DNA of 64,000 nt from Planctomycetota bacterium. Its GTDB lineage: Bacteria; Planctomycetota; Phycisphaerae; WQYP01. This document shows positions 2,713-45,465 of this stretch, in pieces. Each line of letters opens with the position of its first letter. Within the stretch, counting starts at the first letter, position 1. The translations under genes were made by a program, and so were the position numbers. The notes beneath the pieces are model-generated. The model was not told the origin of the DNA. It saw nothing but the letters and a program-made list of their open reading frames with translations, and ran no database searches. Where the stretch lies: NCBI GenBank assembly GCA_021805985.1, contig JAJZDN010000017.1:1-64000 (forward strand), in the 5' to 3' direction.

Positions 2713-5577
2713 GTGGTTACCTCGGATGTTGCCGGTAGCGGTTCTCAACCATCGCTGGAGGGATTGAGTCCCGAATTTTTGCAGAATCTTTATGAACAAT
2801 GGAAACGCACGCCCGATGCGGTTGATCCGCAGTGGCAATGGTTTTTCCGCGGCTTTGATCTAGCTGCGGACACGCCTGCGGCGCAAGTTGGCGCAGCGGT
2901 CGCGGCTGCGCCCTTGGTGGATGGAGAGCCGGATTTACAGATCTCTGACTTAGTACATAGCTATCGCGAACTGGGCCATCTGATTGCCAACTTGGATCCA
3001 CTGGGGCATAACGGCGACGAACATCCATTATTAAGCCTCAACGAGTTTGGCTTAAGCGAAGCGGATTTGGATCGAACCGTGAATGCGGGAAGTTTTGGCG
3101 GCGGCGGCCGCGTGCCATTGCGGCAACTGATTTCCATGTTACGTACCACCTACTGCGGCACCCTGGCTGTGGAATATATGGACATACGTGATCCGGAGCA
3201 GCGGCAATTCTTGCAGGACATCATGGAGCCGACGCTCAATAAACCCCAGCTTTCCGATGCGGATCGCGGCTATATAATGTCGCGTCTGGCGGCCTCGGAG
3301 GATTTTGAATTATTCCTGCAGCGTCGGCACCCCACCACGAAGCGATTTAGTATCGAAGGTGCGGAATCTCTGATAAATCTGCTGGATGAAGTGGTGGAAA
3401 AAGCGGCTGAAAATGGAGTGGATGAAATTGTCATGGGCATGCCGCACCGCGGTCGGCTTAATGTCCTGGCCCACACCATGCACAAGCCTTACGAAATGAT
3501 TATGGCGGAAGTGTTGGATCGCCCCCAGAAATCCATGGGGGATGGGGATGTGAAGTATCACCTGGGGTATGCCCATGATTCCACCACGCGCTCCGGCCGG
3601 TCCATGCACTTATCGCTTTCGGCCAATCCCAGTCACCTGGAAATTGTTGACCCTGTGGTCGAGGGCATTGTCCGCGCTAAGCAAAACCGCAAAGGCGATG
3701 TAACGCGGCAACGTGTAATGCCCGTGCTCATGCACGGCGATGCCGCGTTTACCGGGCAGGGCATTGTGGCGGAAACGTTATATCTTTCAGAACTCGAAGC
3801 GTACCGCACGGGCGGCACGGTTCATATTATTGTCAATAATCAGATTGGCTTTACCACCGACCCCATGGACGGCCGCTTTACCCGCTATGCCACGGACGTG
3901 GCCAAGGCTATTCAGGCTCCGGTGTTTCATGTCAATGGTGATGATCCGGAAGCGGTGGTGCAGGCCGCCCGTCTGGCAATTGCGTTTCGTCAGCGTTTCA
4001 AGGCGGACGTGATTATTGATCTGATATGTTATCGCCGGCGCGGTCATAATGAACTAGATGACCCCAGCGTAACCCAGCCGGTGATGTATCGGGAAATTTC
4101 CAAACATGCCACCACGCGGCAACTTTATGCCAAGCATCTTATGGATTCCGGACACATCACCCAGGTGGAACTGGATAACATGGCGCATGAACTGCATGAC
4201 CGCCTGGATAAGGCGCATGAATACGCCCAAACTTTCAAACCCACCGAAGCGGCGCCGCCCGTCCGCGGCCCCTGGAAAGATCTTCTGAAAGTCCCACGCG
4301 ACATTCGCGATTGGCGCGTGGATACATCCGTAAGCTCGCAGGAACTCCTGAGCATTGCTGAAAAAGTTTGTAAGTTCCCTGATTCCTTTTCGCCCCATCC
4401 CAAAGTGGCACAAATGTACAAGCAGCGGCTTGATGCCGTGCGCAAGGGCGAAGGCATTGACTGGGGCAACGGGGAAATGCTGGCTATTGGCTCACTGCTG
4501 GATGAAGGCATTTGGGTTCGCCTGACCGGGCAGGATGTGTGCCGGGGAACCTTCAGCCATCGCAACGCCGTCATCTTTGATTCGGAAACCGGCAATCCAT
4601 ACAATCCTCTGGCGGCATTTGGCGAAGCCAAGGCACGCTTCACGATTATCAACACCATGCTTTCCGAGTTGGCTGTTGTAGGTTTTGAATATGGATTTTC
4701 ATCCGCTGATCCCCATGCGCTGGTCATGTGGGAGGCGCAATTCGGCGATTTCATCAACATGGCTCAGCCGATCATTGACCAGTTTCTGGTAAGCGCCGAA
4801 ACCAAGTGGAGCAAATACAACGGCATGGTCATGCTCTTGCCCCACGGTTATGAAGGGCAGGGGCCGGAACATTCCCACGCCCGGCTGGAACGATTCCTGC
4901 AGTTGGCTGCGGAAGATAATATTCAGGTGTGCAATCCCACAACGCCCGCGCAATATTTTCATCTGCTGCGCCGACAGATGCACCGCAGCTTCCGCAAGCC
5001 GCTGATTGTCATGGCACCCAAGAGCCTGCTTAGAAACAAAATGGCGGTTTCACGGCTGGAGGAATTCAGCGGCGGCCAATTTGAAGAAATCATCGATGAG
5101 ACATCCAAGCTTGACCGCTCACGCGTGCGCCGTGTGCTGGTTTGCAGCGGGAAAATTTATTATGAACTTCTGGCGGAGCGTGAGAAAAATCGTATTACCG
5201 ATATCGCCATTCTTCGCCTGGAACAAATTTATCCCTTCTATGCCGATCGGCTTACCGAAATCGCCCGCACGTATCCCAAAGGGGTGGAAATGGTATGGGT
5301 TCAGGAAGAACCGCGCAACAATGGCGTATATCCGTTTATCGGGGCTAAGCTGCATTATCATTGGCCGGGCATGCAGAAGTTGACCTATATTGGGCGCAAG
5401 CCGTCGAGTTCGCCGGCCGCCGGCTCGCATGAACGGCATGTGCATGAACAGGCGGAAATATTGGCCCGAGCGCTGAATTTGTCGGTTGCGGATGTCATCG
5501 GCAAAGAACACGCCCCGGCAGGCCAATCGCGCCCCAGCGAAGTGGAAGTTCGCGAAGGCGCACCCATGGCGAAGTAA
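2713..5577 (+). CDS. sucA: 2-oxoglutarate dehydrogenase E1 component
   Basis: 954-aa thiamine-diphosphate enzyme that decarboxylates 2-oxoglutarate and passes the succinyl group to the lipoyl arm of SucB in the cytoplasmic TCA-cycle complex. The N-terminus (FLQNLYEQWKRTPDAVDPQW) is the usual SucA entry domain. The body contains GMPHRGRLNVL, the ThDP/Mg segment around GDAAFTGQGIVAE and NNQIGFTTDP, and the transketolase-like C-terminal half (RLTGQDVCRGTFSHRNAV). Length is normal for the family. The start is GTG with GGAG 7 nt upstream. R1 repeats flank the gene on both sides in direct orientation, and sucB follows 331 bp later. No lpd gene is present in the window. Confidence 0.97.
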   Translation: MVTSDVAGSGSQPSLEGLSPEFLQNLYEQWKRTPDAVDPQWQWFFRGFDLAADTPAAQVGAAVAAAPLVDGEPDLQISDLVHSYRELGHLIANLDPLGHNGDEHPLLSLNEFGLSEADLDRTVNAGSFGGGGRVPLRQLISMLRTTYCGTLAVEYMDIRDPEQRQFLQDIMEPTLNKPQLSDADRGYIMSRLAASEDFELFLQRRHPTTKRFSIEGAESLINLLDEVVEKAAENGVDEIVMGMPHRGRLNVLAHTMHKPYEMIMAEVLDRPQKSMGDGDVKYHLGYAHDSTTRSGRSMHLSLSANPSHLEIVDPVVEGIVRAKQNRKGDVTRQRVMPVLMHGDAAFTGQGIVAETLYLSELEAYRTGGTVHIIVNNQIGFTTDPMDGRFTRYATDVAKAIQAPVFHVNGDDPEAVVQAARLAIAFRQRFKADVIIDLICYRRRGHNELDDPSVTQPVMYREISKHATTRQLYAKHLMDSGHITQVELDNMAHELHDRLDKAHEYAQTFKPTEAAPPVRGPWKDLLKVPRDIRDWRVDTSVSSQELLSIAEKVCKFPDSFSPHPKVAQMYKQRLDAVRKGEGIDWGNGEMLAIGSLLDEGIWVRLTGQDVCRGTFSHRNAVIFDSETGNPYNPLAAFGEAKARFTIINTMLSELAVVGFEYGFSSADPHALVMWEAQFGDFINMAQPIIDQFLVSAETKWSKYNGMVMLLPHGYEGQGPEHSHARLERFLQLAAEDNIQVCNPTTPAQYFHLLRRQMHRSFRKPLIVMAPKSLLRNKMAVSRLEEFSGGQFEEIIDETSKLDRSRVRRVLVCSGKIYYELLAEREKNRITDIAILRLEQIYPFYADRLTEIARTYPKGVEMVWVQEEPRNNGVYPFIGAKLHYHWPGMQKLTYIGRKPSSSPAAGSHERHVHEQAEILARALNLSVADVIGKEHAPAGQSRPSEVEVREGAPMAK

Positions 5578-32658: not shown

Positions 32659-35600
32659 TTACACCACAGGGCGGCCAACTTTTACGCGGTGCACAATTCC
32701 CAATAACGCCGGCAGAATCACCAGCGTCAGCGGCAGTTGCACACATAGGCCGGTGATAATCGCAATAGCCAGCGGCTGCTGCATTTGCGATCCTTGTCCC
32801 ATGCCCAGAGCCAGCGGCAAAAGAGCTAAAATCGCGGCAACCGTCGTCATGGCAATGGGTCTCATGCGATTTTTCCCGGCGTCAATGAGCCGCTTTAGCA
32901 CGGGCGTATCCGCGCTCATATCATTGTATTCCGAGTAATAAAATATTCCGACTTCCGTCACAATTCCCACCACCATGGTCATGCCCATCATGGAAGAAAC
33001 ATTGAGTTCTGTATGCGTAATCCATAGCCCCACAAATACGCAGCACAGCGCCAACAGGGGAATCGACAGCATCGCCAAAGCCACGCGGAAATGTTCATAA
33101 AGAAACAGCAGAACCAGAAACACCAGTAGGACGGCTGCAATCATCACCACCAGCAATCCGCGAAAGGCGATCTGCTGCTGTTTATACAATCCGCCCATCG
33201 CATAATACATGCCGTGCGGAAACATACCGGGTTTATTAAGCACCTGCTGCACCGCTGCCACCGTGGAACCCATATCGCGGCCGTTGATACGGGCGGTAAC
33301 GGCAATCATGCGTTTGAGATTGTCGCTGAATATCTCCTGCTGCCCGGTGAGTGTCTTAATCGATGCCACATCTTTAAGTGGAAATAAATGCCCATCGGGC
33401 GCACGCAACAGGAGATTGCCAATATCCTGTTCCGTAGCGCGGTCGGCGTGGGGAACCCACACGCGCACGCCGATCATCTGCGGCCCACGTTGAATTTCTG
33501 TGGTCACCGTGCCGGAAAGATATTGATTTAAGGCGGTGGTAATAGCGCCAGCTGTCATGCCCTGCAGTGCGGCCTTGATGCGATTTACACGAATCTGCAA
33601 CGCATCGCCCGCGATCTGAATGCCGCTGCGCACTTCCACCACGCCGGGAATGGATGATATGGCTCGCTTCACTTTCAAGGCCTGTGCATCAAGCATCGGG
33701 CCGCTGTCCGAGAAAATTTTTATTTCAATGGGCTGCGGTACAGCGGTCAGATCTCCGATGAGGTCCTGCATCATCTGAGCAGTATCAATTTTCAGCCCCG
33801 GCACCCGCCGGCGGATTTGGCGGCGAATCGCAGTCATAACCTGCTCAATGGGCGGTCTGGGGAATCCTTTGAGACGGATAAAAAAGTCGCCCGTGTAGGA
33901 TCGCGTGGTGCCTCCGCCGAGTTGCAATCCGGTACGACGGGAAAACGTATCGACATATTTATTAGCGAGAATTATTTTCTCAACTTCCAGCAGTAGACGA
34001 TTGGTCTCTGTCGGGGATGCTCCGGGATTGGCGACGTAGTTCAGGATAAAGCCGCCCTCATCCATGTGCGGCATGAAGCCGGTGCCGACATTTCTATAAG
34101 CGGTAAACCCCAGTACCAGAATTGGAATAAGCACCGCCAGCACCAGTATCGGCGCGCGAAGAATACGTATCATGACCCATGCATAGACGCGATGAAGATA
34201 GGCGGTGATTTGCCCGCCTTCGGGCTGGTTGGCATCCCGTTGATTGAGAAAACCAGCGGCCAGCACCGGAACCGCCAGCCACGCCATAAAAAACGAAATA
34301 AGCAGGCTCGCCGCCATGGTCAATGACAATGCTTTGAAAAAGGCCCCTGTGACACCGGAAAGAAAGGCCAGAGGCGCGAAAATAATCATCGTGGAAGTGG
34401 ATGATCCGGCCAGCGGACCGGCAAATTCCCGCGTCGCTTTAATCACCCGCCCGCGTGTATCGCTGCCGGCCCCGCGCGTTCTTCGCACAATGTGCTCCAC
34501 CATTACAATGGCGTCATCAATAATCAATCCCACCGCCGCGGCCATGCCGCCCAGCGTCATGATATTGAATGTCATGTGGAACAGATACAAAAGAAGAATG
34601 GTGGAACTTAACACCGCTGGCACCACCATCGCCGCAATCAGCGTAATTTTCCAGTTACGCAAAAATAGCAGCAGTACCACCACCGCAAGAATGATTCCAA
34701 TAATGACTGCATCCCGCACAGATGCCGCAGAAGCCAGAATAAGTTGACTTTGATTGTACCATGTTGCAATCGTGATGCCTGCCGGAAGATTTTTCTTAAA
34801 ACGGTCTATTTTGTTTTTAATAGCCCTTGCAATTCGCACCGTGTTGCCGCCCGGCTGCTGAAAAACCTGTAAGAGCACGGCGGGATGTCCGTCCGCATCC
34901 ACGCGCGTCCACTGGGGCTTTGTGGAAAGCTTGACGGTGGCCACATCACCCAGCCGAACCAGCCCATTGGCACCCGTGCGCAGAACCACCTGTTGAATTT
35001 GTCGGATGCTGCGGTAGCTGGTGTTGGAAATAATCAGATATAATTTGTCATGATCTTCAAATTTCCCCACCGCACTTAGTACATTGGCCGCACTAAGGGC
35101 CTGGGAAACATCCGCCAGTGTCATATTAAATGCCTGCAGACGCGCCGGATCAACAATGACATGATATTCCGGAGTCGCGCCGCCCTGCACTTGCACCCGC
35201 GCTACGCCGCGCACCGTAGAAACCACCGGTTCAATCTGATATTTAGCAATCGTGCGCAGGCGGCTGGGAGACACCGTGGAGGAGGTCAGGCTGTATCCCA
35301 GTACCGGAAAGTTGGTGGTGTCCATGCGTTTGGCGCGGAAGGTTGTTTCTGCTGGCAGTCTGCGCAGAATGCCGTTAATCTGCGAATCCACCTCGAGCAG
35401 CGCCTGGGCCATGTTGGAACCCCAGGCAAATCCGATTTTCAACTCACAGGAACCCCGGCCGGTACGAGCTTGAACCGATTGCACGCCAGGAATGGATCGC
35501 ACCGCTTGTTCCACGGGATATGTCACAGCTACCGCCATCCGCTGTGCCGGTTGTTGGCCGGAATCCACCGAGACTTCAATACGTGGAAAGCTTACCCGCG

Positions 35601-35712
35601 GAAATAGCGCCACCGGCAACCCCATCGCGGCCAAGGCCCCACCCAATGCTAAAACCAGCATGATAAACAGCACCGACCGGGTGTGCTTATGAATCCATTG
35701 GTTAAAATTCAT
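32659..35712 (-). CDS. RND efflux permease
   Basis: 1017-aa inner-membrane proton-driven pump of the AcrB/CusA superfamily with two sets of six spans and large periplasmic loops. TM4 contains AVGLIIDDAIVMVEHIVRR. The double Asp there is typical of the HAE (drug-type) branch, whereas metal pumps of the HME branch usually have DGAVVMVEN. The C-terminal TM region includes MRPIAMTTVAAILALLPLALG. It is the last gene of the regulator-kinase-TolC-adaptor-permease operon, and its start overlaps the adaptor stop in ATGA. Substrate unknown; the operon context hints at metals but this motif does not. Confidence 0.93.
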   Translation of the reverse strand: MNFNQWIHKHTRSVLFIMLVLALGGALAAMGLPVALFPRVSFPRIEVSVDSGQQPAQRMAVAVTYPVEQAVRSIPGVQSVQARTGRGSCELKIGFAWGSNMAQALLEVDSQINGILRRLPAETTFRAKRMDTTNFPVLGYSLTSSTVSPSRLRTIAKYQIEPVVSTVRGVARVQVQGGATPEYHVIVDPARLQAFNMTLADVSQALSAANVLSAVGKFEDHDKLYLIISNTSYRSIRQIQQVVLRTGANGLVRLGDVATVKLSTKPQWTRVDADGHPAVLLQVFQQPGGNTVRIARAIKNKIDRFKKNLPAGITIATWYNQSQLILASAASVRDAVIIGIILAVVVLLLFLRNWKITLIAAMVVPAVLSSTILLLYLFHMTFNIMTLGGMAAAVGLIIDDAIVMVEHIVRRTRGAGSDTRGRVIKATREFAGPLAGSSTSTMIIFAPLAFLSGVTGAFFKALSLTMAASLLISFFMAWLAVPVLAAGFLNQRDANQPEGGQITAYLHRVYAWVMIRILRAPILVLAVLIPILVLGFTAYRNVGTGFMPHMDEGGFILNYVANPGASPTETNRLLLEVEKIILANKYVDTFSRRTGLQLGGGTTRSYTGDFFIRLKGFPRPPIEQVMTAIRRQIRRRVPGLKIDTAQMMQDLIGDLTAVPQPIEIKIFSDSGPMLDAQALKVKRAISSIPGVVEVRSGIQIAGDALQIRVNRIKAALQGMTAGAITTALNQYLSGTVTTEIQRGPQMIGVRVWVPHADRATEQDIGNLLLRAPDGHLFPLKDVASIKTLTGQQEIFSDNLKRMIAVTARINGRDMGSTVAAVQQVLNKPGMFPHGMYYAMGGLYKQQQIAFRGLLVVMIAAVLLVFLVLLFLYEHFRVALAMLSIPLLALCCVFVGLWITHTELNVSSMMGMTMVVGIVTEVGIFYYSEYNDMSADTPVLKRLIDAGKNRMRPIAMTTVAAILALLPLALGMGQGSQMQQPLAIAIITGLCVQLPLTLVILPALLGIVHRVKVGRPVV

Positions 35713-36812
35713 GGCTTAAACGTCCCTGTAACCGCCATTCCGTTAGTTAATTCCGCATTACCCACAATCACCGCCGGTTCCCCCTCAACCACGCTGCTGC
35801 CAAGCACCTGCACATATCGCGTATTGGCCAAGCCAATACGCACCCGATGCAATATCGCCCGGCCGTTGCGGACCGTAAATAATTCCTGTACATTCCCGGC
35901 CGGCAACACCGCCGCTCGGGGAACCACCAGCCCCGTGGCCTTCGCGATAATCAATTTCCCTTCCACATATTGCCCCAGCAGCAGCCCCGAGTGCATCTGC
36001 GGTGTCACAAACACATCCACCAGCCGCGTCAGTGGATTGACGCGCTGCGTAATTAAGGAAATCTTTCCTACAATGCGCTGGGTGGATTGTTCGCCAACCG
36101 GCAAAAGCGTCACGGTCTGTCCGCGCCGCACCTTTATGGAATCCTCCGGTTCCAGGCCTAACTGGACTTCAATATTTCGAGAGGACACCAGTTGTAAAAG
36201 GGGAGCACCAGGTAAAACAATTTGTCCCGGTCCAGAAAGTATCTTCGATACCACTCCGCCAGCGGGGGCTTTTATTAAACGCGGGCCGCCGATCCCCAGC
36301 GTTTTGAGATTTGTTAAATTCAGTTGTGCCAGTTTCAGTGCCTGCCGGGCCGCCAGCAGGCTTTGCCGGGTAGCCAGATGCAAGGCAAATTTTTGTTTTA
36401 CTTCCGATAGTTGCTCCTCTGCAGAAAGTGCCGAACTCTGGGCCTGCGCCAGCCGCAACAGCTCGGAACTGGTTGATTCCAGTTGCAGTAGCGGTTCGCC
36501 TTTTCTGACGTGCTGCCCGCCGGCGACCAGAATTCGCAACACCTGCGCATTAAAGGGAACCGCCACATTCCGAATCGAACTGGCCCGCGCCACGACCGTG
36601 CCATAAGCCACGACCGAAGCGGAAATACTTTGCCTGCGGACCGGCACGGTTTTGACATAGGCAATCACACGCGGACGCGTGTGGCTTCCTGGTGCGTGCG
36701 CAGTATTTGCCGCTGCCGTCTTCGGACCAGTTTGTCGCCAGATGGCAACACCCATTCCCAGTGCGGAAATAAGCACAAATGCCCAGGATATCCGTTTCAT
36801 GAATCGGGTCAT
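35709..36812 (-). CDS. RND periplasmic adaptor (membrane fusion protein)
   Basis: 367-aa HlyD/AcrA-type adaptor linking the permease to TolC. N-terminal anchor (residues 9-25), then barrel-sandwich halves VPFNAQVLRILVAGGQHVRKGEPLL and LIKAPAGGVVSKILSGPGQIV joined by a short helical hairpin, a beta-barrel and a C-terminal membrane-proximal domain. No His- or Met-rich metal-binding extension is visible. It overlaps both neighbours by 4 nt (ATGA). Confidence 0.92.
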   Translation of the reverse strand: MTRFMKRISWAFVLISALGMGVAIWRQTGPKTAAANTAHAPGSHTRPRVIAYVKTVPVRRQSISASVVAYGTVVARASSIRNVAVPFNAQVLRILVAGGQHVRKGEPLLQLESTSSELLRLAQAQSSALSAEEQLSEVKQKFALHLATRQSLLAARQALKLAQLNLTNLKTLGIGGPRLIKAPAGGVVSKILSGPGQIVLPGAPLLQLVSSRNIEVQLGLEPEDSIKVRRGQTVTLLPVGEQSTQRIVGKISLITQRVNPLTRLVDVFVTPQMHSGLLLGQYVEGKLIIAKATGLVVPRAAVLPAGNVQELFTVRNGRAILHRVRIGLANTRYVQVLGSSVVEGEPAVIVGNAELTNGMAVTGTFKP

Positions 36813-38350
36813 GGTTTGGTCGCTCCGTGTTGCGGGGGAACTGGGGTGGATCGCATCTCCGGCACATACGTGCCGGCGGCCAGAGCCAGCGCAATGCGAT
36901 TGCGCTCCAGCTGATTTTTAAGCTGGATCACGTTGATGCGCTTTTGAATCAATTGATCCACTTCCGTGTAATAGCTGACAATATCAACATTGCCGAACTT
37001 CAGTGCCTGTTGATACGTTTGCACAAGCTTCGCCAGACTTTTTACCGCCGCATCACTGGCGGCAATTTGTGCCCCTAACGCATGAATATCGGAATAAGCC
37101 AGGGCCACCGCGGAACGGGCGGAAAATTCGCGGGCGATATAGCTGTCATAAAGATACTTCCGGGTTGCTTTCTGAATAGCAATATTCCCCTGATTGCGAT
37201 CGAAGATCGGCAGGTCAATCGTGACGCCGAATCCCGTCGTATGAACATTGGTCGTGTCGCTGGCCTGCTGAAACCCCAGGCTTAAACGCGGAAATTGCCG
37301 TAGCACTGCCGCCCGTAGTGATTCCTGCTGGCTTTGATATCCCAATTTGAACGCCACCAGATCCAGCCGCAGACGCGGCAAATCTTTTAAAATAGCCCGC
37401 TCCGGTGGTAAGGCAATGCGTGCGGGAAACCGAATCGTGCGGCTTAAGCGAATGGGTGCGTCAATCGGCAGGCCCATAACCATCCGCAGGCGAATAAGAT
37501 TTTGGTCCCGTTTTTGTGTTAAAGACTCTACCAGCGCCTGCGCCTGTTGGCTGGCAGCACGGGCGGCGCTTAAATCCAGAATGGTATTTAGGCTTGCATT
37601 GTAGGCTTTCTGAACCACTTGTTCATTGGTTTGCAACTCGCTCTGCGCCAGGTGAGCCTGATGCAACTGCGCCTCTGTCGCCGCGAGATTATAAACCGCC
37701 AGCCGGGCCGCCTGCGCGGTTTGCCATTCCTGCCAGGCCACATCCAGATCCACTTGTCCACGGTGATATTTGGCCGACGCCACCCGGGCGTCATGATCAA
37801 TTAACTGTGTAACATCCCAACTCACACCAAGGCCATAACCGGTAAAGGTGCCGGTACGGTACCCGCCGGTAACCAACGCCGTTGATTCCGACACTTGCGG
37901 GTTGGGTAAAATGCCGGCCTGAATCACCTGCGCTGCCGCCTCATGGCGTTGATCCCGCACCGCACGCAGCGATGGATTAAGTATCACCGCGATGACCGCG
38001 GCCTCATTAGGCGTGATTCCACCCGTCGGCCGCAGTGGCAGCGGCGGCAGACCAATGCCGCGCACGCGTTGGGCGGAAATGCGCAACTGCTTCCATACCG
38101 GAACTTGCAATGCCTGATTAACCCGCGCCTCCGTCAGCGGCATGGCATGATAACTTTGACAGCCCGCCAACAGCAGAAGGCCCCAAAGAACCAGTACGCC
38201 AAGCCCATAACTCTCCCACGTCCGCAGGTCGGCAAACAGCAGGCTGAAAACCTTGCGTCCGGTGCATTTGCCGATACACGCGGTAAGAATTTTCTGATCC
38301 TGCCGGTGCGTGAGTGCCTCCCTATCGGCATTTCTATCTCGGAACGTCAT
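36809..38350 (-). CDS. TolC-family outer-membrane efflux lipoprotein
   Basis: 513-aa outer-membrane channel. Two outer-membrane-efflux repeats are visible (SAKYHRGQVDLDVAWQEWQ and QKATRKYLYDSYIAREFSAR with long coiled segments). A lipobox LLLLAGCQSY is present, but it is preceded by about 45 residues without a closer start codon, giving an unusually long n-region. The chosen ATG (38350) has GGAGG 11 nt upstream and overlaps the kinase stop by 17 nt; 38368 and 38419 are alternatives. Works with the adaptor and permease downstream. Confidence 0.88.
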   Translation of the reverse strand: MTFRDRNADREALTHRQDQKILTACIGKCTGRKVFSLLFADLRTWESYGLGVLVLWGLLLLAGCQSYHAMPLTEARVNQALQVPVWKQLRISAQRVRGIGLPPLPLRPTGGITPNEAAVIAVILNPSLRAVRDQRHEAAAQVIQAGILPNPQVSESTALVTGGYRTGTFTGYGLGVSWDVTQLIDHDARVASAKYHRGQVDLDVAWQEWQTAQAARLAVYNLAATEAQLHQAHLAQSELQTNEQVVQKAYNASLNTILDLSAARAASQQAQALVESLTQKRDQNLIRLRMVMGLPIDAPIRLSRTIRFPARIALPPERAILKDLPRLRLDLVAFKLGYQSQQESLRAAVLRQFPRLSLGFQQASDTTNVHTTGFGVTIDLPIFDRNQGNIAIQKATRKYLYDSYIAREFSARSAVALAYSDIHALGAQIAASDAAVKSLAKLVQTYQQALKFGNVDIVSYYTEVDQLIQKRINVIQLKNQLERNRIALALAAGTYVPEMRSTPVPPQHGATKP

Positions 38351-39845
38351 GCGATCCATCGCCTCCATGCTTTGGAAATAACAACACAATAGTAAACCAT
38401 TGGCCGGGGCAGGATTCAACTTTCACCCTGCCGCCGATTTGCCGCATGACATTCTGCACAATGGATAATCCTAATCCGCTGTGCCGGCCGTGATCTGTAC
38501 GGGAATCATCGCCGCGCCAAAACCGTTCAAATATCTGCTGCGACTGCTGCACGGAAATCGCACTGCCCGTGTTAGCCACCGTTAATATTGCCGCATCGGC
38601 ACCGTTTTCCAGCCCAACGCGAATCATGCCGCCCTTATTGACATAACTGACCGCATTGTCCAGTACATTGCGGAGTACCAGCAGCACCAACTCCGGCGGC
38701 GCCTTAACCACGGCCGGAGAAACACCACTATCATCCAACGTCACCGCCCGCGAAATAATGCTTTCCTGACAACTCTGCAAGTGCTGCTGGATCATCTGGT
38801 CCAGCGGGCAGTTTTCCGACGCCTGCGCCCACGCCCCCGCTTCCAACCGGGCCAGCGTCAGCAGGTTTTCCACCATCTCCTGCATTTGCACGCTGATATC
38901 CAGCGATTGCCGCAATGTTCGCTGATACTCGTCGCTGCTGCGCAAGCGGGTTAAAGCCAGTTCTGCGCCGGTGCGCAGGCCGGCCAGGGGCGTGCGCAAC
39001 TCATGGGCCATATCCGCGGTAAGTGCTTTTTCCCGGATAACCGCATCTTCCACACGCTCCAGCAGCTTATTTAGACGATCCACAATGGGAATCAGTTCGT
39101 GCGGAACATTGTGCGTGCTGATGCGATCCTTCAGGCGCGTCGCACCGACTCCCGCAATTTGCTCTGCAATGGTATCCACCGGCCGAAATCCACGATTTAC
39201 AAGCCATGCAATGAGAGCCGCCGAAAGCAACGTGGCCAGAGAGCAGGAAATCGCCAGCGACCAGGCGATACTGGAAAGTGCATGGTCCAGATCATCCGTG
39301 GGCCGGGCAACCGCGAGAATATAATCTAGTCCAATATGTTCCGTCTGGCCGGTGTCGGCCGGTCGGTTGTTGCGAATATCGCCCGTGTGGTCAGAGCCGT
39401 CATGGTGATGGTCCTCCTCGTGGTCATCACTATTTCCCTCGCGGAAGCGGATCGCCAGTTCTCTTCCGTCATGATCGTCCGGCAAATCAACCGCCGCAAA
39501 CCTGACGGCATTGCGTGCAGGGGCGAGGAATTTTAAATTGCGTTTGCCCAGTGCGGGCGGATGAAGCACCAATTTCCCGCGCGGCGTCCAAATCTGAAAA
39601 TAGCGCGGCATGCCATGCGCGTGACCATCCGTGACGGGCGTAAAGTCGGAAGTGATATGGAATCCGCGGTGCGGGTCCCAATCCAGTGTCGCCACCAGCA
39701 GGGTGGCGCGGGCGGTAAGAGAGGCGTTGAACTGGGACTCCAGTGAATGTTGCAGGGTCAGATACAAACTCCCGCCCAGCACCGCCAGCATCACGGCGAT
39801 GGCCGCGCCACATGAGAGCATGAGTTGTAATCGGATCGACCGCAT
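38334..39845 (-). CDS. Sensor histidine kinase with His/Asp-rich sensor loop
   Basis: 503-aa inner-membrane kinase. TM1 about residues 10-30, a periplasmic sensor of about 160 residues, TM2 about 193-217, HAMP, HisKA with ADMAHELRTPLAG (H-box), N-box LRNVLDNAVSYV and G-box HSGLGLSIV. Within the sensor, DDHEEDHHHDGSDHTGD is a likely metal-binding loop, suggesting Zn, Cu, Ni or Co sensing by analogy with CusS/CzcS systems. The ATG overlaps the response-regulator stop in TGATG, so the two are translationally coupled. A TTG 3 nt upstream is less likely. Confidence 0.93.
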   Translation of the reverse strand: MRSIRLQLMLSCGAAIAVMLAVLGGSLYLTLQHSLESQFNASLTARATLLVATLDWDPHRGFHITSDFTPVTDGHAHGMPRYFQIWTPRGKLVLHPPALGKRNLKFLAPARNAVRFAAVDLPDDHDGRELAIRFREGNSDDHEEDHHHDGSDHTGDIRNNRPADTGQTEHIGLDYILAVARPTDDLDHALSSIAWSLAISCSLATLLSAALIAWLVNRGFRPVDTIAEQIAGVGATRLKDRISTHNVPHELIPIVDRLNKLLERVEDAVIREKALTADMAHELRTPLAGLRTGAELALTRLRSSDEYQRTLRQSLDISVQMQEMVENLLTLARLEAGAWAQASENCPLDQMIQQHLQSCQESIISRAVTLDDSGVSPAVVKAPPELVLLVLRNVLDNAVSYVNKGGMIRVGLENGADAAILTVANTGSAISVQQSQQIFERFWRGDDSRTDHGRHSGLGLSIVQNVMRQIGGRVKVESCPGQWFTIVLLFPKHGGDGSHDVPR

Positions 39846-40519
39846 CAATCACCCGGCCCCAGCATATAGCCCTGCCCGCGCCGCGTGTGAATCAGGCGGT
39901 CCAGCGAATCGGCGTCAATTTTCTTACGCAGCAGACTCACAAATACATCCACCACATTACTTTCCGGCGGTGCTTCATCACAATGCACGTGCTCCCATAT
40001 TTCAGCGCGCGAGACAATTTCCCCCTGCCGCATGGCCAGATATTCCAGTATCGCATATTCCCGGGCGCTTAATTCAATTTCCACCCCGCCCTGAAAAACC
40101 CGCCGGGCGTTGAGATCTATCGCCAGTGTTCCGATGGTCAGGCGTGATGACGCAATTTTGTACCGCCGTCGTGTTAAGGCTCGGACTCTGGCCAGCATTT
40201 CCTCCAGCGCAAACGGCTTGGTGAGGTAATCATCGGCTCCCGCATCCAACCCTTTAACCCGGTCATCCACGGTGTCGCGCGCTGTCAGAACCAGTACCGC
40301 GGGCCGGGCTTTCATGCTTCCCATGGCCTTAAGCACCTGAAAGCCATCCACCCCCGGCATCATCAGGTCCAGGATAACCACATCAATATGGCCACTTTGC
40401 AAATGCCATAACGCCAACCGCCCGTCGCCGGCTTCATTAACCACATACGTCTGTTCGCGCAGGGCCTGCGCAATGGATTCCCGTAGCGTCTTAAAATCCT
40501 CAACTACCAATACCCGCAT
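39845..40519 (-). CDS. OmpR/PhoB-family response regulator
   Basis: 224-aa regulator. Receiver domain residues 1-115 with phospho-acceptor Asp51 (VVILDLMMPGVDG), Thr79 and Lys101 (YLTKPFA). The C-terminal winged helix contains LSAREYAILEYLAMRQGEI and the wing RRGQGYML. ATG at 40519 with AGGTG upstream gives the canonical MRVLVVEDF; an ORF extension to 40627 runs through the predicted promoter. First gene of a five-gene operon. Its likely operator precedes it and three nearby genes. Confidence 0.95.
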   Translation of the reverse strand: MRVLVVEDFKTLRESIAQALREQTYVVNEAGDGRLALWHLQSGHIDVVILDLMMPGVDGFQVLKAMGSMKARPAVLVLTARDTVDDRVKGLDAGADDYLTKPFALEEMLARVRALTRRRYKIASSRLTIGTLAIDLNARRVFQGGVEIELSAREYAILEYLAMRQGEIVSRAEIWEHVHCDEAPPESNVVDVFVSLLRKKIDADSLDRLIHTRRGQGYMLGPGD

Positions 40520-40581: not shown

Positions 40582-40614
40582 AGTATAAAGGAGGTTTATG
40601 AAAGGAGAATGAAA
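40582..40614 (-). promoter_or_regulatory. OmpR-type operator and promoter of the regulator-RND operon
   Basis: Minus strand: TTCAT, 6 nt (TCTCCT), TTCAT (40598-40613), then exactly 10 nt and TATACT (40582-40587). The 11-bp period of the half-sites is that of OmpR/PhoB-family binding sites. The same architecture precedes PepSY1, the amidase and PepSY2. Its position 5' of the regulator gene implies autoregulation. Confidence 0.72.
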
Positions 40615-40825
40615 AGCCCCTGATCACTCACCGCGTGGCGGGCCATTATTTCCGTTCCACACGGCCGTGGGAACTTCATTTAGTTCCAGACATCCTTCTC
40701 CCGAAATACGAACATCTGTCACATGGCGCAACAATTCCCTGCAGTGGCAAGTATCGTGTTTTAAGGCACTTATGATGTTTAGTGGAGATGACAGGAGAGG
40801 AATTGCACATGGCGCAACAATTAAG

Positions 40826-42286
40826 TCACGCCCAAAACGGGACATAGCTTGCGTCCTTTGTGCTACCGCCGCCTTGGCGGATTAAGCCGACAGCAATAGT
40901 GTCGCGGATAACACGCGAAGTCACCGAGTGATCTTCGATCTTCAGCCGTTGGCGAAGCGAGCGATTCGTCATGCGCTTGCCCGAGACGTGCCACAGACAT
41001 GCGTGCTGGTAGCAGGCACGAATGCGCTCCCGCCGGTCCATGGCTGCGAAAGGCCGTGGCGCAAAGAGAACGGCAACAGTGTGCTGGGGCGTCGTGCGGA
41101 AATCCGGTGCGGGAAGTTGGTATTCCTCCACAGAAGTGATGACCATCTTGATCCCGCTTCCGCGCTCCTCACATATATTCATTCGTCGCATCAGCGCGGC
41201 CAAGATTTCATTACGAGATCGCGGCGGCTCGTCAATAAAACGCAATGGGTCAATCAATGGCTGACCGGGATTGGTTATTTCCATTCGGCCCGCAAAAACC
41301 TCAATCATCGGTCCGGTACCGGACAAGTTAAAATCCTGATGGATCAGCGCGTTGGCAACGAGTTCCCGGATGGCGACCTCCGGATAAAGGCGAACTGTCC
41401 TGCGAAGAGCCTGCCCAACGTGCTCATTCTGCGGTAGTTGATCATTGATCCATGCGAGCAGTGATTCAAACCCAACCGCGTAGCCCGGCCGGGGAACATC
41501 GGCGGCAATATCGGGATGCTCCTTAACCGTCTGCGTTTTGTTTTCGCCTTGGTAGATCACCACCCGCGGCACCTTGCGGGACAACCGTTGGAAATAACGG
41601 AGATCAGCGGCGAACAGCACCGCTCCGACGTTCGTGATGTCAAACCGGCCGGCCGGTTGGGGGGTAATCACGCGCTCCGCACCGAGTCGTTCCAAAATGG
41701 CGTGGCGGTTGCCGGGGAGCGGAATGCCCAATAGACGGAACGCTCCAACATAATCGATTGATGCCAGTACTTCGTCAGGGGAAGCGGACGGTAGCGCCAC
41801 TTCGGTTTCAAAGACCTTTTCCGAAAACACTGCCCAAAGTGCTCGCTCTTTTTCGGGAAAATCTCGGAGTTTCTTCTTGTAACTTCCCACCCGGATGTAT
41901 TCGGCACCGTCGAAAGCCACCGGCTGATGCGACACAGGGTGAATTTCCAGCAGCACCATGTGCTTGCCGTCCACTTCGCCCTCATGGAAGCGAAAGTCGA
42001 CTCGCGGGGCGAGCAGCCGGAGCAGCCAGTTTTCGAGTTCTTCGTTGCCGACTTTCGTCTGGCGTGGATGAAATGATGTGCCCGTTAATTTGTGCGAGCT
42101 GTTATCAATTCCCCACAGCAGGAAGGCTTGGGGGCGACGGTGTAACGCCGCGCCGTTGGATAGAGCGGAAATATACCCGCCGATCTCATGCGGATCGACG
42201 ATATTGTGCTTGAACTCAACCCACTCGGTTTCGCTCGGCAGCGAGCGAAGATTTTCGATAAGAGATTGGAGTTCCCTCGGTGTCAT
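40826..42286 (-). CDS. AlbA_2 (Schlafen-type) DNA-binding plus GHKL ATPase protein
   Basis: 486-aa protein of the COG2865 type. Residues 1-150 are an AlbA_2 domain (ETEWVEFKHN, LLWGIDNSSHKLTG, YIRVGSYKKKLRDFPEKE). A middle region includes NVGAVLFAADLRYF, then a GHKL-ATPase-like segment (AIRELVANALIHQDF, MEITNPGQPLIDP, ERGSGIKMV), and a C-terminal winged helix. Such proteins are often annotated as RecG-like or as transcriptional regulators and are common in accessory and defence loci. A second, divergent relative lies at 51.3 kb. No partner gene is evident here. Confidence 0.85.
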   Translation of the reverse strand: MTPRELQSLIENLRSLPSETEWVEFKHNIVDPHEIGGYISALSNGAALHRRPQAFLLWGIDNSSHKLTGTSFHPRQTKVGNEELENWLLRLLAPRVDFRFHEGEVDGKHMVLLEIHPVSHQPVAFDGAEYIRVGSYKKKLRDFPEKERALWAVFSEKVFETEVALPSASPDEVLASIDYVGAFRLLGIPLPGNRHAILERLGAERVITPQPAGRFDITNVGAVLFAADLRYFQRLSRKVPRVVIYQGENKTQTVKEHPDIAADVPRPGYAVGFESLLAWINDQLPQNEHVGQALRRTVRLYPEVAIRELVANALIHQDFNLSGTGPMIEVFAGRMEITNPGQPLIDPLRFIDEPPRSRNEILAALMRRMNICEERGSGIKMVITSVEEYQLPAPDFRTTPQHTVAVLFAPRPFAAMDRRERIRACYQHACLWHVSGKRMTNRSLRQRLKIEDHSVTSRVIRDTIAVGLIRQGGGSTKDASYVPFWA

Positions 42287-42676
42287 AAGCCCACTTCTCC
42301 GCGCGACCGCAGATATTCCGTCCCCACTACCAACCCAGGGGGGCGTCGCAATAAATTCGGGCAGGACTCTGGTGTGCCAGTTCCCAAGACGAGCCTTCTC
42401 TTAGCGAGGGCATTTATGCCGTCGATTTTGCCGCTTGCCCGGAAATATTGCCACGCCCAGCCAGGGGACGGGGAATCGATGAGGTTTTGTAAGCAGCGGA
42501 TTGGCGGTAGCATATTCATCTTAGGGACATTTGACGGTCCGTTTGCTGTCGTGTCAAGCAACGCCAAGCCTGAATTTACAAAGTATACCGCATTAGGGGA
42601 AGACAAACAGCAGGGCCAGCCCATAGCGCCATGAGCCAGCCCTGCTCAGGGAGGAGGATGCCTTTTTGTTCGACGG
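42287..42676. other. Spacer between the AlbA/GHKL gene and PepSY1
   Basis: No gene. It contains the hairpin at 42609-42646, which follows PepSY1, and the upstream region of the AlbA/GHKL gene. No promoter hexamers stand out. Confidence 0.4.
42609..42646 (-). terminator. Hairpin downstream of PepSY1
   Basis: On the minus strand AGCAGGGC pairs with GCCCTGCT, with an inner GCTCAT/ATGGGC stem. A modest T-rich tract (TGTTTGTCTT) follows. It lies 31 bp past the PepSY1 stop codon; an intrinsic terminator or 3'-stabilising hairpin. Confidence 0.6.
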
Positions 42677-43348
42677 TCAGTGGTTGTCGCCATGATTGTG
42701 ATCGCCATGGTCGCCATCGCCGTGGCCATGATCTTTGTGATCCCCATGATCTTTATCCCCATGGCCATGGTCTCCATGGTCTCCATGGTCTCCATGGCCA
42801 TCGTGATCAGCATGATCGCCATTTTCATGATCGCCGTGATCTTCTTTCTTAAGTTTTATTTTCAGCAGCGTGCCGTCGGGCAGCACTTTGAGTTTGTACG
42901 CGTGTTCGCCAATTTTTACTTTCGCTTTGTAAAATGCACTTCCGGCATCGGTATAATGTTCCTCAATATCGGAAGCGTTGCCGCCGCCCATTTCCTGTTT
43001 GATGGTTGCTGCAACCGCAGCGGGGAGTTCGGCCATCGTGAGTTCCATATCGCTTAAATGTTTTTTCAGCAGGATGCCATTCATGGCAATTTTAATTTCA
43101 TAAGGCATTTTGCTGATTACCACATCGGCCTGGTATGTGGCTCGGTGATCGCCAACGGCCATATCAATTTCCCCAACTTGCCCGCCCGCAACTTCCTGCG
43201 TAAGGGTCTTGGCGACAGCAGTGGGCAATTGCGCCATGGTCACCCTGCAGTCGCCGCGGTCCGGCGCATCAGCCCGCGCTGGCAGCGAACCTCTGGCTGC
43301 CAAACCCAATCCGACAACCCCGATAATAAGAAATGCTTTGCGATTCAT
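42677..43348 (-). CDS. PepSY-like periplasmic protein with His/Asp/Gly-rich tail (PepSY1)
   Basis: 223-aa secreted protein. Signal peptide at residues 1-25 (KAFLIIGVVGLGLAARGSLP). Two PepSY-like repeats each begin TMAQLPTAVAKTL or TMAELPAAVAATIKQE and end in YKLKVLPDGTLLK-type strands. The last roughly 55 residues are almost only His, Asp and Gly in HGD/DHG steps, a strong divalent-metal chelator (Zn, Ni, Cu, Co). The start has CAGGAG 8 nt upstream. Preceded by an operator like that of the local regulator. PepSY2 at 44.7 kb is a diverged duplicate without the tail. Confidence 0.85.
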   Translation of the reverse strand: MNRKAFLIIGVVGLGLAARGSLPARADAPDRGDCRVTMAQLPTAVAKTLTQEVAGGQVGEIDMAVGDHRATYQADVVISKMPYEIKIAMNGILLKKHLSDMELTMAELPAAVAATIKQEMGGGNASDIEEHYTDAGSAFYKAKVKIGEHAYKLKVLPDGTLLKIKLKKEDHGDHENGDHADHDGHGDHGDHGDHGHGDKDHGDHKDHGHGDGDHGDHNHGDNH

Positions 43349-43400
43349 AACCGCACTCCTGAAAAAATCACAGATCGAACCATACAATCTGCATAAACTT

Positions 43401-43432
43401 AAACTAACATCCAACCATGAAAGGAACGTGAA
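43401..43432 (-). promoter_or_regulatory. OmpR-type operator and promoter of PepSY1
   Basis: Minus strand: TTCAC, GTTCCT, TTCAT, 10 nt, then TAGTTT (43401-43406). One mismatch in the distal half-site. The operator is about 70 bp upstream of the start codon, identical in distance to that of PepSY2. Confidence 0.68.
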
Positions 43433-43468
43433 GCCCTGATTTAAACCGATGCTTTGCCGCGCGATGTT

Positions 43469-44146
43469 TCATCGTGTCACACGCAAATAGGCCTCAAGGC
43501 CGCGTACCAATCCCGCTGCCAGCCGTTGCTGGCCTGATTTTGACGTCAGGTATCTTAGATCATGCGGATCAGACATAAAACCCAATTCCACCAGCACCGC
43601 CGGGCAATTGCTTTTGTCCAGCACTTCCAGTCCACGCGTATCCCTGCGAACATTGTGACAGATAAAGCCCTCATGAATCAGCCCCACAGCGATGAGGTGG
43701 GCCGCCACATGAGAGTCATGGGAGGCGCCCTGCGCGTAAAGCACAGTAAAACCATCCATGCCGTGTTGCTTGAAATAATCACAATGAATACTCAACAGCA
43801 GACGATCACCCGGGCGATTGGCGATCTGTACCCGATCGCTGAGGCTCACATATTTATCCCGGTCGCGTGTCAAGACATACTTGATATGGTCATGCTTCAG
43901 CAGCGGAACCATATCCTTTGCCACCGCCAGAACAATCGTCTTTTCATCCACGCCCGTGCTGCTTCGCGTTCCCGGATCAATTCCCCCATGCCCCGGATCA
44001 ATAACAACAAACCCGGTCGTTTGATCCTTCCCCATCGCCCGATGCAGCCACAACGGAAAGGCCAAAAGACATACAACACTTAGCACAAGCAGTGCCTTCC
44101 ACCGGTTATCGCCGTAGGCGAAATTATTGCTGTCACACTGTTTCAT
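43469..44146 (-). CDS. N-acetylmuramoyl-L-alanine amidase (Amidase_3)
   Basis: 225-aa zinc amidase that cleaves the peptide stem from glycan strands of peptidoglycan. N-terminal signal anchor (residues 17-35). Zinc and catalytic motifs: VIDPGHGGIDPG, LLLSIHCDYF and AVLVELGFMSDPHDL with the catalytic Glu. No SPOR, AMIN or LysM domain, so it depends on its anchor for location. It has an OmpR-type operator 110 bp upstream, and PepSY1 follows 120 bp downstream. A decayed fragment of a second copy lies at 45384-45465. Confidence 0.92.
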   Translation of the reverse strand: MKQCDSNNFAYGDNRWKALLVLSVVCLLAFPLWLHRAMGKDQTTGFVVIDPGHGGIDPGTRSSTGVDEKTIVLAVAKDMVPLLKHDHIKYVLTRDRDKYVSLSDRVQIANRPGDRLLLSIHCDYFKQHGMDGFTVLYAQGASHDSHVAAHLIAVGLIHEGFICHNVRRDTRGLEVLDKSNCPAVLVELGFMSDPHDLRYLTSKSGQQRLAAGLVRGLEAYLRVTR

Positions 44147-44676
44147 GCCGTTCCTTTCGCAACCATAAACACCAGCGACATTCCACCTCCCACCGCTTTA
44201 CCCCAGCCGGAAAACCGGGGCGGAAATCGCTAAATCAAAGCATGCTGCCGAGTCAAAGTTATCAACGGAACATGAAGGGAACATGAAATTACCAAAGCCT
44301 GATGCGGAACACAGTTCCAGTGCTCCCCATCTCCCTGTTTTGCTCCGGAAATAAAGGATCGAAAGTCCCTGCCGGCCTTGCTCATCGCCGTGGTCTACCG
44401 TGTGTTGAAAGGTAAAGTTGCCCGGTGCGATTCTGGAACCGCAGATAACGCGAATAGGGGCGGCGAGGGACATTTGGGGGCCTGGGGCCGGATGGGAAAA
44501 GCGGTGTGTACCGCGGCTCTGCCCTGCGGGTGGCTGGCATCTTTTATGCCTTTCAAACACCCCGCGCTTTGTCAGGCATGCGGAATTTTATGGTTCCTGA
44601 CGTCTTAAATAGCCTCCGGGCTGGCTGCCAGAACTGTATGCCGTTGAAATACCGGGCCGCCCTGCTTCACCCTCGC
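44147..44676. other. Spacer upstream of the amidase
   Basis: No gene. Bases 44256-44287 hold the amidase operator and promoter, and 44438-44456 hold a short copy of the GCGGATAACGCG repeat. The rest shows only overlapping chance ORFs. Confidence 0.45.
44256..44287 (-). promoter_or_regulatory. OmpR-type operator and promoter of the amidase
   Basis: Minus strand: TTCATGTTCCCTTCATG (44271-44287), a perfect 11-bp direct repeat of TTCATG, then 10 nt after the second TTCAT and TAACTT (44256-44261). Same geometry as the other three sites. Confidence 0.72.
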
Positions 44677-45240
44677 TTACCGGCGTTCGTGGAAAGTTGC
44701 TTGAGGAATTGTCGATATTCCTGTCCCCTGTCGCGACCCCAGGGACTTTACACCGAACACGCCGCAAGCCTTACAGAAAATGAATACGAGAATAAGTGCT
44801 GCAATAATGCTAAGCCATCTGACCACGAGGCCTATCTCGTAAAAGAGCTGCTCACCAATATCAGAAGTGTTGCCATTTCTCATCACCTGCTTAATGGTGC
44901 CCTGGGCGAGTGCGGCCGAGTGGTTCATGGTCGGGATCAGGTTGTTTATCTGTTTTTTCAGCAGTGTGCCATCCATGGAGATTTTAATTTCATAAGAAAT
45001 TTTATTAACGACCACCTCGGCTTCATACGTGGCTTGATGATCGCCAGCGGTCCTATCAATTTCGCGGACGTACCCCCCTGCGGCTTCCTGCGTCAGCGTC
45101 TTGGCGACAACGGTTGGCAATTGTGCCATAGTAATTTTGGATTCCCCATGGTACGCCGCAGCCGCCCGTAGGGGTAGCGCACCCTTAGCCATTAAGCCCA
45201 AGCCAACAGCCCCGATGATAAGAAATATTTTGCAATTCAT
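44677..45240 (-). CDS. Diverged duplicate of the PepSY-like protein (PepSY2)
   Basis: 187-aa protein. Residues 1-115 align with PepSY1 (KIFLIIGAVGLGLMAKGALP signal, TMAQLPTVVAKTLTQEAAGG, YEIKISMDGTLLKKQI). After NGNTSDIGEQ, where PepSY1 reads GNASDIEEH, the reading frame shifts and the tail becomes a hydrophobic segment (LSIIAALILVFIF) plus a basic end. The His/Asp tail is lost. The upstream 90 bp, operator included, is also duplicated. It may be a working membrane-anchored variant or a decaying copy. Confidence 0.7.
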   Translation of the reverse strand: MNCKIFLIIGAVGLGLMAKGALPLRAAAAYHGESKITMAQLPTVVAKTLTQEAAGGYVREIDRTAGDHQATYEAEVVVNKISYEIKISMDGTLLKKQINNLIPTMNHSAALAQGTIKQVMRNGNTSDIGEQLFYEIGLVVRWLSIIAALILVFIFCKACGVFGVKSLGSRQGTGISTIPQATFHERR

Positions 45241-45292
45241 AATGGCGCTCCTGAAACGATAGCAGATCGAACCATTCATTCTGCGTAGACTC

Positions 45293-45324
45293 AAATTAGC
45301 ATTCCAGCATGAAAGGAACATGAA
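45293..45324 (-). promoter_or_regulatory. OmpR-type operator and promoter of PepSY2
   Basis: Minus strand: TTCATGTTCCTTTCATG (45308-45324), 10 nt after the second TTCAT, then TAATTT (45293-45298). Duplicated with the gene, but here the distal half-site is a perfect TTCATG. Confidence 0.7.
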
Positions 45325-45383
45325 GCGCAGCACGGGGCTCATGACATAGCGCGGTGCCTTACTGGGTCCCAGGCCAAGAAGCC

Positions 45384-45465
45384 GTGAGGCCGCGCATCAG
45401 GCCGCCACCCGTTGCCGCCGTGATTTTGACGCGACAGAGCGTAAATCATGCGGATCAGACATAAG
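45384..45465 (-). pseudogene. Remnant of an amidase C-terminus
   Basis: About 80 bp aligning with the 3' end of the amidase gene at 43490-43575: AGGCCGCG, CCCGTTGC, GATTTTGACG and ATCATGCGGATCAGACATAA are shared in order. Frame and upstream part are lost. Its distance to PepSY2 matches that of amidase to PepSY1, so it marks a segmental duplication. Confidence 0.75.

Follow-up and report, generated by a model that had tools for sequence, protein, structure and literature searches.

Among the described regulators that most resemble the one analysed here, BqsR/CarR of P. aeruginosa uses two 5-nt direct-repeat half-sites with a 6-bp spacer (TTAAG-N6-TTAAG), from which BqsR activates; the last half-site overlaps the -35 region, and further half-site clusters occur at the same period (PMC4682146); its partner is a cation-sensing kinase (PMC12666569). 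PhoB binds as a tandem dimer over the -35 region (PMC3348028), and the E. coli phoA promoter, as checked in sequence, reads GTCAT-N6-GTCAC-N10-TATAGT, a 5-6-5-10-6 layout identical to that described below. CusR/CopR/CzcR systems are alike in their operon plan of regulator, kinase, outer-membrane efflux protein (OEP), periplasmic adaptor (MFP) and RND permease. Regulators of this type use inverted-repeat-like boxes, unlike the direct repeat found here. To our knowledge, few transcription factor sites have been described in Planctomycetota, most members of which are uncultured; our literature search turned up no planctomycete regulon of this sort and no OmpR-type regulator that uses a TTCAT direct repeat.

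The locus lies in what we call the window, the whole 64,000-nt stretch of Phycisphaerae DNA that was analysed. Its half-site is TTCAY rather than the TTAAG of BqsR, with other target genes and in another phylum; compared with the Pho box, the first base of the half-site differs and the targets are not phosphate genes. We estimate a probability of roughly 0.8 that four sites in the window are the operators of a single stress switch under the control of the two-component regulator encoded nearby. We regard it as a new, well-delimited regulon of an established type rather than a new mechanism.

Four promoter sites and their genes

The original prediction comprised four minus-strand sites with N6 spacing and an N10 distance to four -10-like hexamers, placed before the regulator-RND operon, PepSY1, the amidase and PepSY2, and both the sequence check and the gene positions bore this out. 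Predicted operator 1 (40598..40613, TTCATTCTCCTTTCAT; full element with its -10, 40582-40613, TTCATtctcctTTCATaaacctccttTATACT; hexamer TATACT at 40582..40587) precedes the regulator-kinase-efflux operon and has orthologous sites in the related genomes G005, G004 and G002. Operator 2 (43417..43432, TTCACGTTCCTTTCAT; full element 43401-43432, TTCACgttcctTTCATggttggatgtTAGTTT; hexamer TAGTTT at 43401..43406) precedes PepSY1 and is kept in G005, G007, G002 and G004, with sites in other genera standing before His-rich/PepSY genes. Operator 3 (44272..44287, TTCATGTTCCCTTCAT; full element 44256-44287, TTCATgttcccTTCATgttccgttgaTAACTT; hexamer TAACTT at 44256..44261) precedes the amidase and is kept before Amidase_3 genes in G005, G004, G008, G010, L059, L061, L065 and others, and operator 4 (45309..45324, TTCATGTTCCTTTCAT; full element 45293-45324, TTCATgttcctTTCATgctggaatgcTAATTT; hexamer TAATTT at 45293..45298), which precedes PepSY2, is paralogous to operator 2. 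Each hexamer lies 10 nt from its operator, and the operators end 68-125 nt upstream of plausible ATG starts. Three of the four window promoters (those of operators 2, 3 and 4) have a TGn extended -10, as do 12 of 31 sites overall, and a promoter scan found no sigma-70 promoter with a -35 box at the four places.

All genes concerned lie on the minus strand. The first gene of the operon (39845..40519) encodes the proposed binder, an OmpR/PhoB-family response regulator as predicted, in which Pfam identified receiver (Response_reg) and winged-helix Trans_reg_C domains (E 5.5e-30 and 6.1e-22). The operon spans 32659-40519 in genes that overlap or adjoin, continuing with a sensor histidine kinase with a His/Asp-rich periplasmic loop (38334..39848; Pfam HisKA and HATPase_c; 4-nt overlap with the regulator gene), an outer-membrane efflux protein (36809..38419; Pfam OEP), an RND periplasmic adaptor (35709..36812; NCBIfam TIGR01730, above cut-off) and an RND permease (32659..35712), whose best NCBIfam matches, NF033617 and TIGR00914, are both below their cut-offs and do not separate a multidrug from a metal type.

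A structure model, Foldseek and alignment indicate that PepSY1 (42677..43348) is a secreted protein in which two PepSY-like repeats are followed by a His/Asp-rich tail. The model (mean pLDDT 66, repeats 73-91) forms a helix and four strands, twice, with a tail that is predicted to be disordered. Foldseek matched the repeats to DUF2874/PepSY-like periplasmic proteins (E 3e-5 to 1e-3), including those of Bacteroides (3db7, 4k61, 3u1w), some of which are described as calcium-binding or calcium-regulated; PepSY1 differs from them by its added tail and the sequence match is weak, with PepSY-like sequence models below cut-off (PF11396, E 0.02 and 0.009). A hairpin scan placed a terminator-like hairpin of 17 pairs after PepSY1 (42609..42646), and a similar hairpin was seen by eye upstream of the regulator promoter in G002, G006 and G003. 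The N-acetylmuramoyl-L-alanine amidase (43469..44146) is an Amidase_3 protein (Pfam E 1.7e-43). PepSY2 (44677..45240), a PepSY1 paralogue by alignment and model search, has one clear PepSY-like repeat and a C-terminal hydrophobic segment. Proteins of this type (L029, L028 and window 44677-45240) have lost the His-rich tail and have a hydrophobic end, and the PepSY gene behind the site in G006 and G003 is of the PepSY2 type.

Duplication and insertion at the locus

A duplication had been proposed behind two of the four sites, and blastn confirmed it with a 625-nt match at 71% between 42957-43578 and 44849-45464. The match takes in the operator and ~110 nt from the 3' end of the amidase gene, a remnant of which lies at 45355..45464 (minus strand, start approximate), corresponding to 43469-43578. 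The order in G005, operator-amidase-operator-PepSY1-operator-regulator-kinase-OEP-MFP-RND, is likely the ancestral arrangement; compared with it, a tandem duplication in the window gave PepSY2 and the amidase remnant, and PepSY1 is separated from the regulator by 2 kb of inserted DNA carrying a Schlafen-AlbA_2-type gene. Homology to G005 restarts beyond this insertion, 14 bp upstream of operator 1, so the operator was kept and the DNA above it replaced. The ~2-kb stretch, which stands for ~230 bp of G005 and is absent at that place in relatives, carries the Schlafen AlbA_2/HATPase_c_4 gene at 40826-42286, beside which a 17-nt direct repeat (CACATGGCGCAACAATT) occurs near 40720 and 40806.

Specificity within the genome

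A scan of the 4.68-Mb assembly (95.5% complete; genome-wide work was by pattern and model searches) could have shown the pattern scattered at random inside genes. Instead, TTCAY-N6-TTCAT-N10-TANNNT gave four exact matches, all in the window, and zero beyond the four sites, with none in the reversed control. The chance of four randomly placed matches all falling within one 4.7-kb stretch is ~4e-9, or 3e-6 if only three are independent. Allowing one mismatch (second half-site relaxed to TTCAY) added 15 scattered places against 10 in the control, which puts such matches near background, and TTCAT-N6-TTCAT without a -10 has 11 genome-wide matches, so much of the specificity comes from the fixed -10 distance. 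A profile built from 31 sites ranked the window's four far above the rest of the genome, bar one weak match, although this ranking is not independent because the profile includes the four sites themselves. That best weak match, C19:32280, falls antisense inside an open frame of 674 aa and was rejected as a fifth target. No site stands at the DUF347 gene of this genome (C94) or at its second RND operon (C72).

Conservation in relatives

Across 22 related Phycisphaerae loci, 40 half-site pairs were spaced by N6, whereas each other spacing from 0 to 25 gave 0-8 and the reversed control 0-4, bearing out the 11-bp half-site period proposed for the direct repeat. TA...T stood exactly 10 nt after the half-site pair in 33 of the 40, with every other distance yielding 0 or 1. 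Because sites were selected on their half-sites, the invariance of these is by construction. No such selection underlies the preferred spacing, the -10 distance, the final T of the hexamer or the pyrimidine-rich spacer (consensus GTTCCT). Over 34 distinct sites, only the half-sites, the -10 and part of the spacer are conserved, and both flanks drop to background.

Within the order, 28 genomes contained 52 matches against one in the control (~1.9 versus 0.04 per genome), and the class beyond the order, sampled in 127 genomes, contained ~36 (~0.3 per genome), some at regulator orthologue loci (L062, L064). By our tally, ~45 of the 52 order matches precede one gene set, namely Amidase_3, secreted PepSY and/or His/Asp-rich proteins, the regulator, PAP2, DUF347 membrane proteins and one RND efflux operon. 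The ~7 matches that fit no member include two inside open frames (G010:C66, G034:C492), one before a GH116 gene (G011:C69) and one before a HAD-like gene (G002:C136:15513). As read from the sites, the conserved core of the regulon is the amidase and PepSY/His-rich promoters, and small secreted His/Asp-rich proteins stand behind the site in G010, G011, G023, G029 and G033.

Several site-bearing genes lie apart from the regulator. The amidase and PepSY1 of G004 carry sites on C124 with the regulator on C21, PepSY2 of G002 carries one on C136 with the regulator on C217/C14, PAP2 genes with a site are unlinked from the regulator in three cases (G029:C124, G010:C119, G030:C352), and a site in G029:C75 precedes an unlinked DUF347-OEP-MFP-RND cluster. 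The idea of a local regulon stands as regards a common site on one gene set, which is conserved in relatives, but the regulon is not strictly local, as in relatives it takes in PAP2, DUF347 and one unlinked RND operon.

In G012 and G024 (L145, L144), a divergent amidase and PAP2 gene have one operator each in a common intergenic stretch. On G002:C136 (L032), three consecutive TTCAT half-sites with an 11-bp period (4530-4556) precede a HAD-like gene, resembling the extra half-site clusters of BqsR, and one operator occurs in two copies 227 nt apart before a PepSY2-type gene.

The regulator as proposed binder

Seven of the eight genomes of the genus (own included) encode the regulator, and orthologues extend through the family. 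The orthologues compared show 52-96% identity and an invariant recognition-helix segment, ESNVVDVF. Of the 21 order genomes that encode the regulator, 20 have the site, compared with two of the seven that lack it (Fisher p 0.0012), a co-occurrence weakened because a lost contig removes regulator and sites together, the MAGs are incomplete and the genomes are related. One of the two exceptions, G032, has a site before the amidase with the regulator not found at the threshold used, and G021, the sole order genome with the regulator but no site, carries the most distant homologue (48%). Set against this, the genome encodes further OmpR-type regulators, which might in principle bind the sites. On these sequence patterns, the adjacent OmpR/PhoB-family regulator is very probably the binder of the predicted operators.

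The proposed autoregulation holds in part. An operator stands before the regulator in the window, G005, G004, one G002 copy and L062 and is absent in G006, G003 and G007, and most other genera have no site match directly before the regulator; judged by the operator, autoregulation is kept in part of the genus only. Verrucomicrobial orthologues (L069-L074, 52-56%, same recognition-helix segment) had no site-model match near the regulator. They come from MAGs, several labelled Akkermansia muciniphila, and the species labels look doubtful.

Probable activation from the -35 region

A head-to-tail regulator dimer could occupy the two TTCAY half-sites, one DNA turn (11 bp) apart. With the -10 hexamer starting 10 nt past the second half-site, such a dimer would cover the -35 region, the operator lying at about -38 to -23 if the hexamer is placed at -12 to -7. 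Coverage of the -35 region, together with the lack of a sigma-70 -35 box, means that the regulator would most likely activate in place of the -35 contact, and the similar layouts of phoA and BqsR also favour activation. By this analogy, we consider that the regulator probably activates rather than represses.

Repression, in which an operator over the -35 region would block RNA polymerase until the signal arrives, is unlikely. An operator over the core promoter would suit it, and the TGn extended -10 of three window promoters could work without a -35 contact, yet TGn occurs in just the 12 of 31 sites noted above, and the 10-nt distance is invariant across genera, as expected for polymerase contact, whereas a repressor tolerates other positions. 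Furthermore, PhoB and BqsR are activators from this layout (PMC3348028, PMC4682146).

It is still less probable that the sites are Pho boxes of a separate PhoB acting under phosphate limitation. The phoA half-sites, GTCAT and GTCAC, differ by one base each from the sites here in the same layout, and PhoB and the window regulator belong to one family. However, no site was present in 19 kb around phoU or near either of two further OmpR-type regulator genes that were inspected (one adjoins a histidine-kinase gene), and a phosphate regulon was rejected on that ground; the targets are an amidase, His-rich proteins and efflux rather than phosphate uptake, and the regulator scored 173.4 against PhoB TIGR02154 (cut-off 296.2). 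Coincidence or common descent, with sites alike merely through promoter copying without selection by the regulator, can be practically discounted, for operators 2 and 4 are indeed copies but the leaders of the amidase, the PepSY and the regulator genes are not alike in other respects, and the confinement of conservation to the element in the 34 distinct sites mainly refutes a copying reading.

Signal and function

For activation by the adjacent regulator, the signal is somewhat more plausibly metal/envelope stress than not. The His/Asp-rich tail of PepSY1, the kinase loop, which alignment showed to be His/Asp-rich across the genus, and the recurrent His/Asp-rich targets point to periplasmic metal cations. 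The metal part of the proposed metal/envelope-stress set leans on these His/Asp-rich stretches and not on the RND pump itself, which scores below the metal-exporter cut-off (permease against TIGR00914, CusA/CzcA metal RND: 461.5, cut-off 701.5) and higher, yet also below cut-off, against the multidrug model NF033617 (535). The best NCBIfam matches of regulator and kinase are likewise sub-cut-off: TIGR01387 (CusR/CopR/CzcR; 207.7, cut-off 279.2) and TIGR01386 (CusS/CzcS; 239.2, cut-off 292.6). The ExxE iron motif of the Fe2+ sensor BqsS was not seen in the His/Asp-rich kinase loop of the window (GRELAIRFREGNSDDHEEDHHHDGSDH), a further difference from that system.

Under the proposed switch, the kinase would be stimulated, in our view by excess metal cations or metal-linked envelope damage, and would phosphorylate the regulator. 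The phosphorylated regulator would then turn on the peptidoglycan amidase, the periplasmic PepSY/His-rich proteins, which could act by metal binding or by damping the kinase, and, in the window genome, its own operon with the RND efflux pump. We tentatively suggest that the whole may form a Phycisphaerae-specific envelope and metal stress response that links remodelling of the cell wall by the amidase with PAP2 lipid phosphatases, DUF347 membrane proteins, RND efflux and secreted His-rich PepSY proteins, the last as a possible metal buffer and kinase feedback brake.

For a phylum of this kind, the regulator, its operator and a multi-family regulon become readable from sequence across ~10 genera. 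The search pattern is specific (~2 matches per genome in the order versus 0.04 in the control), making it usable to find further targets, and those within its reach include the unexplained DUF347 and His-rich PepSY proteins.
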